A program made the position numbers and the translations under genes. DNA of 64,000 nucleotides from Glycomyces terrestris (GTDB lineage Bacteria; Actinomycetota; Actinomycetes; Mycobacteriales; Micromonosporaceae). The stretch covers positions 312,475 through 376,474 of the forward strand of contig NZ_RSEB01000005.1 of the NCBI RefSeq assembly GCF_003933745.1, given 5' to 3'. A model generated the notes under the pieces. It was not told the DNA's origin. It saw only the letters and a program-made list of their open reading frames with translations, and ran no database searches. Each line of letters opens with the position of its first letter. Within the stretch, counting starts at the first letter, position 1. Below are positions 41,931 through 46,222 of this stretch, piece after piece.

Positions 41931-42464
41931 TCAGGCGCGCTCGAGGGCCTCGCCGGGCAGCGCCTCGGCGGACTCGGGGCTGTTGAAGATCCAGGTGCGG
42001 TAGGCGAAGAAGCGGAAGACCGAGCCGAGGCCGACGCCGAAGACGTTGGCGGCCAGGTTCACCGCGATCGCGTTGTCGAAGTACTGCGGCCACACCTGCG
42101 CGAGTCCCGCGTTGGCCCAGATGCAGGCGAGCGCGATGAGCAGGCCGATGCCGTTGAAGAAGAAGTAGAGGGCGTACTGGCGGTGGGCGGCGGCGGTGCC
42201 GCGGCGCTCGCGCCAGGTCCAGTGCCGGTTCCCGAAGAACGCGAGCGTCATCGCCAGGACGGCGGAGAGGATCTTCGCGTACCAGTACGACCAGTCCATG
42301 CCGAGGTACAGCAGGTTGAACAGGCCGACGTCGACCACGTAGGCCGTGCCGCCGACCCCGGCGAACTTGAGGAGCTCGCCGGCGTGGCGCTTGACGAGGC
42401 CGGCGGCGCGCGCGATCGGGCCCCGGTCTCGCTCCGGGGATGCAGGGGTCTCGGTCGTGGTCAT
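41931..42464 (-). CDS. GtrA-family membrane protein
   Basis: The 177-residue product has four transmembrane helices and the GtrA signature: LLKFAGVGGTAYVVDVGLFNLLY, SAVLAMTLAFFGNRHWTW, and FRFFAYRTWIF near the end. GtrA proteins are thought to help move lipid-linked sugars across the membrane. The minus-strand TAGGCT (42473-42478) ends 8 nt before the ATG, so the transcript is probably leaderless. Confidence 0.9.
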   Translation of the reverse strand: MTTTETPASPERDRGPIARAAGLVKRHAGELLKFAGVGGTAYVVDVGLFNLLYLGMDWSYWYAKILSAVLAMTLAFFGNRHWTWRERRGTAAAHRQYALYFFFNGIGLLIALACIWANAGLAQVWPQYFDNAIAVNLAANVFGVGLGSVFRFFAYRTWIFNSPESAEALPGEALERA

Positions 42465-42517: not shown

Positions 42518-45043
42518 CTACGGCGCGACCGCGGGCTGGGCGACGGCGACGACGCCGACGACGAACGGGTCGTCGCCGCGCTCGAAGCGGACCACGGCCT
42601 CCTCGCCGGTGTGCGCGCGGTGGACGCGCACGTCGACGCCGAACGCGTACCAGTCGGGGTTGTCGACGGCGCCGTTCGCGTGGCAGGTGGCGGGCTCGCC
42701 GAGGCTCTGGCCGCCGGCGCTGAGGTCGTCGCCGCGCAGGTACGCGGAGCCGCCCCACAGGGTCGCGGCGACCTCGACCTCGCCGCCGCCCTCGATCTCG
42801 ATCTCGGTGTCCGCGGCGGCCGCGCCGTCGTAGACCGCGACCTCCCTGGCATCGGCGCCGGGCTCGGCGTAGACGACCGTGAGCGACCAGCCGGCCCAGT
42901 GCGGCTCCAGGCAGTGCGCGCCCGCGTCGACCGGCCAGGCCTGGCACGGCGAGGTCGGCAGCTGGTGGTTGTCGGCGGCGACCCAGTACTCGCCGCCGCC
43001 CGCGACGAGGCCGGTGACGTCGGCGAACGCCTGCACGCCCGGCTCGGCGTCGGTGAGCGCGTCGGCCGCGAGGTCGGTCCAGGAGCCGCCGGGGCCGTGA
43101 AACGACACCGAGGTCGGCAGGTCCTCGTGGACGCCGGCCCAGTACAGGCCCGCCCAGCGGATCTCGGCGCCGCCGGGGACGTCAAGGACCGCGCCGGAGG
43201 CGGCCTCGCCTTCCCGGCCGGCGGGCGCGTCCCCGGGCTTGTACGCCTTCATCGGCCAGCGGTCGCCCGCGCCGAGGAGCGCCGCCTCGCGGCAGCCGGG
43301 CAGGGAGCAGGTGAGCCAGGTGTTGCCGGAGGCGGTGACGCCGGTGGCGTCGAGGCTGGCGTAGCCGACGGTGCTGCCGGCGGGGGCGATCGGGACCTGG
43401 AGCGCGGTGGTGCCGGAGATCCCCGGGCCCTCGACGGTGACCTGAAAGGTCTGGTAGCCGCTGACGTCCTCGCCGATGCTGATGCGCACGTTCGCCTCCG
43501 CGGGGCTCGGCATGCGCGCGATCGAGCACTGCACGGTGGCGCCCTCGACGCAGGTCCAGCCGGGGTCGGCGGTCTCGGAGGCGAGGGCGACGCCTTCGGG
43601 GAGGACGATGTCGAGCAGGACGCGGTCGCTCGCGGCGGCCTGGCCGTGGCCGAGCCGCGCGGACTCGGGGGCGCGCTCGGTGCGGGGCGCGGCGGCGCCG
43701 CCAGTGCCGTCGGCGGCTTCGCCGGTGCCGCCGGGGGCTTCGAGCCGAATCGGGAGGACCGCTTCGCCGCCCGCGACGAGGCCGCTGGTGCCGAGGCCGT
43801 GCGCGATGCCGTACGAGGCGGGCTCGGCCCCGGGCGCGGGCTCCTCGGCCGGGTCCTCGGGGTCCGGTTCCGGCGCCGGGTCGGCCGGGTCCTCGGGCGC
43901 GGGGTCCTCCGGGTCGGGTTCGGGCTCCTCGTCCTCGGGTTCGGGTCCGGGCTCGGCGGGCTCGGTGACGGCGGGCGCCTCGGGCGCGGCCTGCGGCTCG
44001 TCCTCCTCCTCGCCGGAGGTGAGCGCGAAGACGGCGACGGCGGCGACCACGGCGGCCGCGGTGCCGGCCGCGAGGGAGCCCTTGGTGCCGAGCTGCTGCA
44101 CGATCCGGCGGATCCAGTTCGCGGCCGCGACGAACGGCGCGCCCACGGCCGCGAGGAACCCGCCGACGGCGACCCCGGCCGCGGAGACCGCGCCGGCCGC
44201 GAGGTACGGGGACGCGGCGCCGCCGAGGAAGACCGCGGCGACGACGACGCGCAGGCCCGAGTTCAGCTCGGTGAGCTCCGCGAACAGGAGGTTGCAGGTG
44301 ACGCACGAGTCGAGGTGGTCGTCGACCTTCTGCACCTCGCGCTCGCCGAGCTTGCCGCGCACGCGCGCGCCGAGCCGGTCGACGGTCCAGCGGCACTCCT
44401 CGCGCGGGGAGTCGGCGGCGTGCTCGGTGAGGTAGTTCTGGCGGAGCTTCTCGCGGGCCCGGTACGCGAGCGCGGAGACCCCGTTCGGGGTCATGCCGAG
44501 CATCGTGGCGATCTTGGCCGGGGAGTCCTCCTCGACCTCGGTGTGCCACAGGACCATCCGCCAGCGCTCGGGGAGCTTGCCGAAGGCGAGGGCGGCGTAG
44601 CGGCGCTCCTGGCCCTCGACGGCGGGGTCGACGAAGACCTCGCCGGGGTCGTGGGGCGAGAGGTCGTCGGTGAACTCGACCTTCTTGTCGCGGCGGAGCC
44701 GGTCGTAGAAGGTGTTGCGGAGGGTCTGGAGCATGTAGGGCCGGAAGGCGAGGTCGGGGCCGCCGCCGTCGCGGAAGGTGTGGAGGAGCTTGGCGAAGGT
44801 CTCGGAGACGAGGTCGTCGGCGCCGGCGGGGTCGCGGGAGAGGATGCGCGAGAGGCGGCGGGCGGCATGGACGTGGCGCTCGTAGAGGACGGCGTACGCG
44901 GTGGTGTCGCCGCGGCGGGTGGCGGCGATGAGCTCGGGGTCGGAGCGGTTCGCGGGGTCGTCGTCGGGGTCGCGGGGGGCCTGGTCAGGCGCGGCGCCGG
45001 GTTCTAGGCCGCGGGGATCGCCGGCGGGTACGGTCTCGGGCAT
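42518..45043 (-). CDS. ECF sigma factor fused to a zinc anti-sigma motif, membrane helices and a secreted domain
   Basis: One 841-residue chain joins parts that are usually separate. Residues 35-115 are sigma region 2 (LYERHVHAARRLSRILSRDPAGADDLVSETF), and 150-205 are region 4 (PERWRMVLWHTEVEEDSPAKIATMLGMTPNGVSALAYRAREKLRQ). A zinc anti-sigma motif follows: Cys217, then His243-x3-Cys247-x2-Cys250. Hydrophobic segments span 265-306 and 323-342, then a Pro/Glu/Asp linker (345-400), and then an extracellular part with DUF11-like and DUF3344-like beta domains (IRWAGLYWAGVHEDLP, WAGWSLTVVYAEPG). ECF groups with C-terminal extensions of this kind are known in actinobacteria. AAGGAG lies 12 nt before the ATG. 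Release of the sigma part would need proteolysis or a shape change. Confidence 0.88.
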   Translation of the reverse strand: MPETVPAGDPRGLEPGAAPDQAPRDPDDDPANRSDPELIAATRRGDTTAYAVLYERHVHAARRLSRILSRDPAGADDLVSETFAKLLHTFRDGGGPDLAFRPYMLQTLRNTFYDRLRRDKKVEFTDDLSPHDPGEVFVDPAVEGQERRYAALAFGKLPERWRMVLWHTEVEEDSPAKIATMLGMTPNGVSALAYRAREKLRQNYLTEHAADSPREECRWTVDRLGARVRGKLGEREVQKVDDHLDSCVTCNLLFAELTELNSGLRVVVAAVFLGGAASPYLAAGAVSAAGVAVGGFLAAVGAPFVAAANWIRRIVQQLGTKGSLAAGTAAAVVAAVAVFALTSGEEEDEPQAAPEAPAVTEPAEPGPEPEDEEPEPDPEDPAPEDPADPAPEPDPEDPAEEPAPGAEPASYGIAHGLGTSGLVAGGEAVLPIRLEAPGGTGEAADGTGGAAAPRTERAPESARLGHGQAAASDRVLLDIVLPEGVALASETADPGWTCVEGATVQCSIARMPSPAEANVRISIGEDVSGYQTFQVTVEGPGISGTTALQVPIAPAGSTVGYASLDATGVTASGNTWLTCSLPGCREAALLGAGDRWPMKAYKPGDAPAGREGEAASGAVLDVPGGAEIRWAGLYWAGVHEDLPTSVSFHGPGGSWTDLAADALTDAEPGVQAFADVTGLVAGGGEYWVAADNHQLPTSPCQAWPVDAGAHCLEPHWAGWSLTVVYAEPGADAREVAVYDGAAAADTEIEIEGGGEVEVAATLWGGSAYLRGDDLSAGGQSLGEPATCHANGAVDNPDWYAFGVDVRVHRAHTGEEAVVRFERGDDPFVVGVVAVAQPAVAP

Positions 45044-45400
45044 CGTGCGCCGGTGCTCCTTCCTGGTTGCGCCGAGCTCGTACGATCGGGGGGCTCGGAG
45101 GCGTCTCTCTGCGAGAGCGGGCGGGTCGACTGGATTGGAGGAGTTCTCGCTGTCTCCCTTGGCTTAACGATCGAGTCGGCCTCCGGTTGCGCCTTGGACG
45201 CACGGTGTCCCCGAACGGGACATTCCACGGAGTTTAGGGCAAAAACCCGCCATAGTCGTGAATTGTGATGCGATTGTGACCAGGTGTGATGGTATTGGGA
45301 CTTCCCGCCCGGGTTCCAGCGGTCTGTCGGAAATACGTCAGGCGATTGCGTACCGTGGGGTAACGCAGACTGTGACGCGAACGACGCAAGGAGGTGAGCG
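45044..45400. promoter_or_regulatory. Divergent control region between the sigma fusion and the GlpR-like gene
   Basis: The 357 nt hold no gene. TGTCCC (45206-45211) and GGGACA (45217-45222) form a dyad. Three TGTGA copies, at 45264-45268, 45275-45279 and 45285-45289, are spaced 11 and 10 bp, one helical turn each, as in OmpR-type response-regulator sites. A further TGTGA is at 45371-45375. AAGGAGGTGAGC before 45401 is a strong ribosome site. An ECF-type promoter for the sigma gene was not identified with confidence. Confidence 0.5.
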
Positions 45401-46222
45401 ATGCCCGCTTCGGTACTGCTGGCGCTGCTGGTCGGCACGGCCCTGCTGGCCCTGACCCCGGCCCTGGTCCGCCGGTACGACCCCGACGAGCGGATGATCG
45501 AGGACCGCTCGACCTCCGACGCGCGGGTGCTCACCCGGGAGGGGGCCCGGCCCCCGCGTCCCGCCGCGCACCGGACCGTCCCGCTCGATCCCGCCACCAC
45601 CCCGGACGAATCGGGTGAAACGGGCGCTTCGCTCGACGACATGCTTGCGTCCCAAGGATCTCGGCGCACGCCGAACGCGCGCGGGTGGGAGCGGCGCGGC
45701 ACGCGCCGCGGCGACTCGGTACGGTTGGAGACCGACCAGTCGTTGACCGGCGAGGACCCCGAGATGCACGAGCAGGCCAGGCTCCGGCAGATGCGCGCCG
45801 AGTGGTGGCGGCGGCGCCACCGCCGCATCCTCTACGTGCTCATCGCACTGACCCTGCTGGAGCTCGCCGGCGTCGCCGTCGCGGGCCCCGGCTTCTGGAT
45901 CGGCGCCGGCGTCGCCATCGCGGCCCTCGGCGGGTACGTGTGGTTCCTGCGCGAGCGCGCCAAGAGCCTGCGCCCCCGCCGCCGCCCCAAGGCGATGCTC
46001 ACCGCCGAGCCCGAGCACGAGGAGGTCGGCCCGCCGACCTACGTGCCCGAGCAGCCCGACGGCGACTACGTCGAGGAGGACACCCGCGAGTCGTTCCTCT
46101 TCGCGGACGACGACGAGGACGACGAGCCCGCCCCGCCGCCGCGCCCCGACCCGCGCCGCCCCGACGGCCCCGCGGGCGTGCGCGGGCGCTCCTACGAGGC
46201 CCCGGCCAAGCTCGAGCGCTGA
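45401..46222 (+). CDS. Three-helix membrane protein, possibly GlpR-like divisome protein
   Basis: The 273-residue product has an N-terminal membrane helix (residues 3-22), a disordered cytoplasmic stretch with MIEDRSTSDARVLTREG, a basic coil (123-142), two closely spaced helices (143-161 and 163-183), and a long acidic and proline-rich tail. The layout recalls GlpR, the membrane partner of a gephyrin-like divisome protein in actinobacteria. That match is only to layout, and glp itself is not in the window. The ribosome site AAGGAGGTGAGC is near-perfect. trmB follows 24 nt on. Confidence 0.65.
   Translation: MPASVLLALLVGTALLALTPALVRRYDPDERMIEDRSTSDARVLTREGARPPRPAAHRTVPLDPATTPDESGETGASLDDMLASQGSRRTPNARGWERRGTRRGDSVRLETDQSLTGEDPEMHEQARLRQMRAEWWRRRHRRILYVLIALTLLELAGVAVAGPGFWIGAGVAIAALGGYVWFLRERAKSLRPRRRPKAMLTAEPEHEEVGPPTYVPEQPDGDYVEEDTRESFLFADDDEDDEPAPPPRPDPRRPDGPAGVRGRSYEAPAKLER

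Follow-up and report, generated by a model that had tools for sequence, protein, structure and literature searches.

Closest Described Systems

The fusion of an ECF sigma factor to a membrane-bound regulatory module within one polypeptide has been described before, and we draw here on those parts of the cited articles that were available to us. The best-known actinobacterial example is SCO4117 of Streptomyces coelicolor (ECF52), for which the succession of sigma factor, zinc finger, membrane segment, Pro-rich stretch and ectodomain has been published and regulated proteolysis proposed (PMC5826349). A SCO4117 gene cut down to its sigma part activates its own expression, and development of the corresponding strain is still delayed, albeit less than in the knockout (PMC5826349); this phenotype is not that of a regulator which is plainly "constitutively on". 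In the same partial literature, SCO4117 is the sole actinobacterial member with a published mutant. Release by proteolysis has also been predicted for ECF48 and ECF53 (PMC8999054, PMC10766802), and some members of ECF52 and ECF53 bear predicted glycosyl hydrolase and carbohydrate-binding domains (PMC10766802). In Pseudomonas putida, the ECF243 protein IutY is cut by Prc and RseP, thereby releasing its sigma factor, and is described as the only fused case tested (PMC8999054).

Here we analyze a gene of Glycomyces terrestris that lies in a window of 64,000 nucleotides of contig NZ_RSEB01000005.1, the whole stretch of DNA considered. Its product shares with SCO4117 an ECF sigma factor, a zf-HC2 domain, one or more membrane helices, a Pro-rich stretch, an extracytoplasmic binding domain and an actinobacterial host (PMC5826349). 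A preliminary description of this DNA had regarded the exact domain order as possibly new, a suggestion that we withdraw since this order is the one published for ECF52 in the sections of PMC5826349 at hand. Having a zinc domain and one or two membrane helices on the same chain as the sigma factor, with proteolysis expected, is also reminiscent of ECF53 and ECF48, by description only (PMC8999054), and IutY likewise unites anti-sigma and sigma factor in one membrane protein (PMC8999054). Unlike the protein studied here, IutY belongs to Gram-negative iron cell-surface signalling, and the available part of PMC8999054 describes no zinc finger, Pro-rich stretch or Ig ectodomain for it. The overall plan is already known from ECF52 and, in outline, from ECF53 and ECF48.

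Other properties set the Glycomyces terrestris protein apart. Whereas the SCO4117 type bears an NPCBM domain, it bears Ig-like and DUF3344-like domains, and 12 of 12 NPCBM loci lack the downstream GtrA-family gene found here. These outside domains are of the same kind as those of DUF3344/DUF11 fibrillar-adhesin-like proteins (PMC9210967, seen in part), but are joined here to a transcription factor. As far as we have seen, four elements are apparently new: a lineage that differs from the NPCBM type, a recurrent DUF11/DUF3344-like sensor, how broadly ectodomains are swapped, and the link with GtrA; of these, the swapping and the conserved GtrA neighbour were absent from the preliminary description. 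The literature available to us in part mentions no sigma factor with a DUF3344-like ectodomain, none with an adjacent GtrA gene, no such separate lineage and no such breadth of swapping, a statement that excludes the 2021 ECF reclassification, Huang 2015 and Pinto 2019, which may list such ectodomains.

A Single Chain with Sigma Regions and a Zinc Anti-Sigma Motif

The gene is a single open chain without internal stop over 841 residues, and is organized as follows (coordinates in the window).

42518..45043, minus strand: whole gene, membrane-tethered ECF sigma factor, 841 aa (ORF and homologs)
44681..44887, minus strand: sigma region 2, residues 53-121 (Pfam PF04542, 38.1 bits, cut-off 24)
44444..44590, minus strand: sigma region 4, residues 152-200 (Pfam PF08281, 26.7 bits, cut-off 25.7)
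44294..44395, minus strand: zinc anti-sigma motif zf-HC2, residues 217-250 (Pfam PF13490, 30.4 bits, cut-off 22.2)
44018..44254, minus strand: membrane region, residues 264-342, strongest segment 324-342 (hydropathy scan)
43820..44017, minus strand: acidic Pro-rich linker, residues 343-408 (composition)
43373..43816, minus strand: Ig-like (DUF11-like) part, residues 410-557, with invariant C498 and C506 (structure model, fold search, profiles)
42539..43360, minus strand: DUF3344-like part, residues 562-835, with C579 and C584 (profile overlaps DUF3344 in homologs L134 and L135)

The protein is an ECF sigma factor in that both sigma regions pass their family cut-offs (Sigma70_r2, E 1.3e-9; Sigma70_r4_2, E 4.2e-6; both Pfam), and its sigma part reaches 63.3 bits against a cut-off of 42.9 for TIGR02937 of NCBIfam. 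The zf-HC2 match (E 4e-7, Pfam) contains the H-x3-C-x2-C signature and upstream ligand of ZAS domains. The preliminary description had named Cys217, His243, Cys247 and Cys250 as zinc ligands, and these four residues are invariant in 37/37 aligned rows, our protein among them. It had also placed sigma regions 2 and 4, the zinc motif, hydrophobic helices, an acidic Pro-rich linker and an ectodomain of about 440 residues on one chain, an architecture borne out by the ORF, Pfam, hydropathy and composition. The placement of the start codon is supported by GGAAGGAGC, which directly precedes it in 19/19 Glycomyces upstream regions. Neither of the two genes flanking the sigma gene gives a zinc anti-sigma match.

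A sequencing error joining two genes near residue 210 or 345 had been named as one finding that would refute this architecture. At both places, the reading frame is open in the gene's own locus and in one locus from each of 21 same-genus genomes (L004-L023 and the fragment L025). Homologs were matched in 21/21 other same-genus genomes searched, in 63/101 relatives' genomes at E <= 1e-20 (own genome included) and, using the first 345 residues, in 139/394 class-wide genomes at E <= 1e-25. Moreover, 19 named records encode a close relative, 18 from Glycomyces and one from a metagenome-assembled actinomycete. Nothing was found in favour of a fusion created by sequencing error or gene prediction, and we reject it as virtually inconceivable because the same fusion is conserved in all 21 other same-genus genomes and in relatives of other genera.

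Membrane Region, Linker and Ectodomain

A 19-residue Kyte-Doolittle scan places hydrophobic segments at residues 264-282, 288-306 and 324-342, the last being the strongest. Judging by its function, the sigma-bearing N-terminus is expected to be cytoplasmic, and the RR and K within residues 307-322 suggest that this stretch also stays in the cytoplasm. The last helix would then direct the C-terminal part outward, whether residues 264-306 form a hairpin or lie along the membrane. The linker beyond it counts 21 Pro and 27 Asp/Glu among its 66 residues, and its pLDDT is mostly below 50 in a full-length structure model that is weak overall (pTM 0.53).

The ectodomain comprises 437 residues (~405-841). 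Its Cys pairs 498/506 and 579/584 are kept as pairs in 37/37 and 36/37 aligned rows, respectively, in keeping with an extracytoplasmic location. Of the 37 rows, 22 have C700, 23 have C711 and 17 have Cys787, which lacks a partner Cys.

An AlphaFold2 model of the ectodomain built on the 37 aligned rows is confident (mean pLDDT 88.5, pTM 0.88). A fold search with this model likens the first ~150 residues to Ig-like domains of adhesins and integrins: the CLIPPER adhesin domain 9ifr was retrieved by Foldseek with a probability of 1.00 (E 2.8e-3), and its structural alignment with the model gives Z 9.1 for 113 aligned positions at 3.8 A. Among solved folds, the best alignments were obtained with integrin leg domains, macroglobulin domains of the complement/A2M type and the fibrillar-adhesin CLIPPER domain, with Z of ~9-10 that modestly exceed the tool's usual best of 7-8, in VIA-align rows which cover mostly model residues 1-324 and barely sample the second part of the ectodomain. 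Likeness to an Ig-like fold says nothing on function. The second part is beta-rich in the predicted model; its Foldseek matches are scattered and superpose poorly, the top one being a GH115 enzyme (rmsd 18.7 A), and include some carbohydrate-binding modules. Against the sequences of solved structures, the ectodomain profile gave two weak matches (E 0.018 for the streptococcal R4 surface protein, and 0.092).

The DUF11 and DUF3344 labels of the preliminary description hold through homologs. The 841-residue protein itself matches neither family at E <= 1 in Pfam and does not reach the cut-off of DUF3344 (PF11824). Homolog L135 scores 31.0 bits for DUF3344, above the cut-off of 27.2, and L134 scores for both families below cut-off; the DUF11 (L134) and DUF3344 (L134, L135) stretches sit within regions matched by our ectodomain profiles. 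Two other labels were set aside, namely DUF6484 at residues 805-832 (Pfam, E 0.03, below cut-off) and PADLOC PD-T4-6 (E 0.002), which falls on residues 328-404, that is on the membrane helix and low-complexity linker rather than on the ectodomain. Pfam, PADLOC and the best 25 of 49 NCBIfam families provided no useful ectodomain label. No further copy of the ectodomain was found elsewhere in the genome, and NPCBM is absent from the protein, PF08305 having no match in the genome at E <= 0.001.

Exchange and Loss of Ectodomains Across the Family

After five matched loci were left out (two of G068, one of G073, two of G074), 161 extracted proteins yielded 134 distinct ones once copies and proteins shorter than 180 aa were removed; L156 was also left out. 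The first tree contains 123 rows, i.e., 121 of these proteins and two outgroups, 13 near-identical Glycomyces rows having been removed; 15 of its rows are cut by a locus end, and their ectodomain labels may be wrong. The second tree retains 83 rows, six of which are truncated by a locus end; the 40 rows taken out by hand, both outgroups among them, had long branches or were near-duplicates.

Of 54 homologs scanned at E <= 0.05, all carry sigma regions 2 and 4 and 52 carry the zinc motif. An NCBIfam scan of the same 54 homologs at E 1e-30 assigned no family. Beyond the membrane helix, relatives bear varied outside domains, including NPCBM, DUF642 (L132), ricin-B lectin (L136, L139), F5/8C (L082), I-set (L139), Big_6 (L140) and DUF11 (L080). 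Custom profiles detect the DUF3344-like ectodomain in 38 of the 123 rows of the first tree; it recurs in many actinobacterial relatives and is not unique to the Glycomyces terrestris gene. The carbohydrate module of SCO4117 is a different domain.

NPCBM occurs in 12 of the 123 rows, all in one clade, which excludes the Glycomyces terrestris protein on the sigma/zinc tree (support 99 in the first tree, 100/98 in the 83-row tree). As in the SCO4117 type, the sigma part of our protein is followed by a zinc finger, a membrane helix and a Pro-rich stretch; the protein lacks the C-terminal NPCBM and is not placed with the NPCBM rows. Homologs L122, L123 and L127 show the SCO4117-type architecture, and the NPCBM rows belong to a large-genome genus that is presumably Streptomyces. 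On the 83-row sigma/zinc tree, at least 15 changes are required among five ectodomain classes, an approximate number given that six rows are cut and that classes were assigned by custom profiles and length. As judged from these sequences, ectodomains have been swapped across the family.

A subclade of seven short proteins (203-310 aa; L075, L076, L078, L079, L081, L087, L088) is devoid of ectodomain and membrane helix. Four of them (L075, L076, L078, L079) keep the sigma part and the zinc motif, L081 lacks the first Cys of the motif, and L087 and L088 lack the motif as well. Because both the ectodomain and the membrane helix are lost there, the sensor appears dispensable in this subclade.

All seven short homologs have two GtrA-family genes directly 3', so that the sensor seems to have been lost naturally while these neighbours stayed in place. 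At the other extreme of length, very long members were found (L071, 1376 aa; L072, 1296 aa; L149, 1258 aa; L141, 1335 aa), with scores for outside domains of the DUF11/CARDB type in L071 and L141. Finally, L143:2418-5326 encodes two back-to-back sigma homologs of 562 and 408 aa, each with a zinc motif and a membrane helix.

A GtrA-Family Gene as Downstream Neighbour

The gene following the sigma gene belongs to the GtrA family, its product scoring above the Pfam cut-off, and is one of only two GtrA matches in the whole genome.

41931..42464, minus strand: GtrA-family gene, 177 aa, 53 nt downstream of the sigma gene (Pfam PF04138, 75.8 bits, cut-off 26.1)

Counted by locus rather than by genome, some genomes contributing two or three, the 450 nt downstream contain the start of a GtrA gene in 19/19 Glycomyces loci. 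Among 49 loci of other relatives, 4 were too short to judge; of the remaining 45, 26 have a GtrA start in that interval and 19 do not. With the interval widened to 1.5 kb, the count for these other relatives rises to 30 of 43 loci, while a same-strand upstream control (up to 1.1 kb) found GtrA in 0/49. At the class level, where five relatives have a DUF3344-like ectodomain, none of 37 judged loci (38 chosen with flanks, one too short) has a GtrA neighbour. On the 83-row tree, where GtrA labels were set by hand, the 31 GtrA-linked rows (27 within 450 nt, 4 within 1.5 kb), which share ancestry and are not independent counts, all fall inside one 40-row clade (support 96/93; L029 within it left unjudged). 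Outside this clade stand 43 rows, of which 27 were judged, all without GtrA, and 16 left unjudged (15 with short flanks, and L134). Within its clade, the GtrA link persists through ectodomain change and even loss.

On the divergent side, the neighbouring genes encode a small membrane protein and TrmB, and matches to them were almost confined to Glycomyces. TrmB, a label given by eye from the sequence, adjoins the gene in Glycomyces and in the fragment L025/L051 only, flanks elsewhere spanning 1.5-6 kb; as a neighbour common to SCO4117-type genes it was rejected, being absent from all NPCBM loci.

Proteins of the GtrA family have been proposed to export lipid-linked sugars that serve to build surface polymers, according to the parts of three reports available to us (PMC11127046, PMC13390465, PMC7775120). 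The neighbour may help to decorate the cell surface with sugars, and its conservation next to the sigma gene suggests that signal and output both concern surface glycan.

Proposed Mechanism and Alternatives

We consider it fairly probable that the protein is a one-piece surface sensor whose sigma factor is released by proteolysis and which is tied to cell-surface glycan assembly. The fused zinc anti-sigma domain would keep the cytoplasmic ECF sigma half inactive in cis, and the last membrane helix (324-342) would carry the acidic Pro-rich tether and the Ig-like/DUF3344-like ectodomain outside. The trigger would be a surface change, most likely in the state or ligand of cell-wall or surface glycan, upon which a first protease would cut the exposed linker; a site-2 protease (M50) would then cut within the membrane, thereby freeing the sigma factor to direct transcription of surface-glycan genes. 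Inhibition in cis and stepwise release are modelled on SCO4117 and IutY, which they probably resemble. Genes of the M50 family are present in the genome, and likewise in 14/14 control genomes. The preliminary description had already envisaged that an outside signal could release the sigma part without a separate partner. The idea is reasonable, considering that the protein is one chain and that adjacent genes give no zinc anti-sigma match, and its proteolytic form had been published for ECF52.

Release could also occur without proteolysis, either through a ligand that shifts the helix so that the zinc domain lets go while the sigma factor stays tethered and acts close to the membrane, or through redox sensing by the zinc domain, a scheme that we regard as unlikely. 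Zinc domains of the ZAS class can sense redox, and the short homologs L075, L076, L078 and L079 retain sigma part and zinc motif with the membrane part gone. Conformational change is moreover allowed by the proposal of Pinto and Mascher, as quoted in the accessible part of PMC5826349. Nevertheless, a tethered sigma factor would presumably reach few promoters, the long acidic linker, disordered in the model, looks like a cleavage-prone stalk, and IutY, the case documented in the available part of PMC8999054, is cut. The resemblance of the ectodomain to adhesin-type domains, together with the listing of a DUF3344 cluster, of ambiguous function, among adhesin-like proteins (PMC9210967, seen in part), could instead mean that the membrane part serves chiefly for adhesion or anchoring to the wall, with a sigma factor constitutively or developmentally active and blind to outside signals. 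Such an arrangement seems improbable to us: a zinc motif invariant in 37/37 rows needs a reason if the sigma factor is always active, and fusion to a sigma factor would be odd for a plain adhesin.

We put forward, more tentatively, a further reading that we hold to be rather doubtful. The sigma factor would read a surface polymer via its swappable outside domain and would control, or be controlled by, the adjacent GtrA sugar-lipid exporter, both forming one operon across several actinobacterial families. If true, these proteins would constitute a distinct class of one-piece surface-glycan sensors that couple transcription with the export of glycan.

Bacterial surface sensing by sigma factors that carry their outside domain on the same chain has been little tested. 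In the present family, a common sigma/anti-sigma core occurs with many naturally swapped ectodomains and, in some members, with the ectodomain naturally lost, and the GtrA neighbour in one large clade points to a likely target process; signal and output are therefore directly testable.

Upstream Elements

The preliminary description had proposed to look for a dependent promoter upstream of the gene and elsewhere in the genome, and this search did not find one. The single ECF-like pattern tried, GGAAAT-N13-16-CGTA, has 4 matches in the genome and 2 for the control, i.e., no clear enrichment, and a scan for sigma-70-type promoters found none. One ECF-promoter-like sequence with a short spacer, GGAAAT-N14-CGTA at 45329-45354 (plus strand), is kept in 16/19 Glycomyces upstream regions; it precedes and faces the divergent gene at 45401-46222, not the sigma gene.

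Alignment of the 19 Glycomyces upstream regions also revealed a tandem element.

45264..45301, minus strand: two tandem GTCMCAATNNCATCACA elements upstream of the sigma gene (alignment of 19 Glycomyces upstream regions)

The two halves of each copy lie 11 nt apart, the copies have 0 and 2 mismatches, and each is recognisable with loose patterns in 18/19 Glycomyces upstream regions. With up to 3 mismatches, the genome contains 6 such sites, both upstream copies included, versus 1 for the control. The tandem copies are possible activator sites, and their arrangement may resemble direct repeats of the MtrA type.
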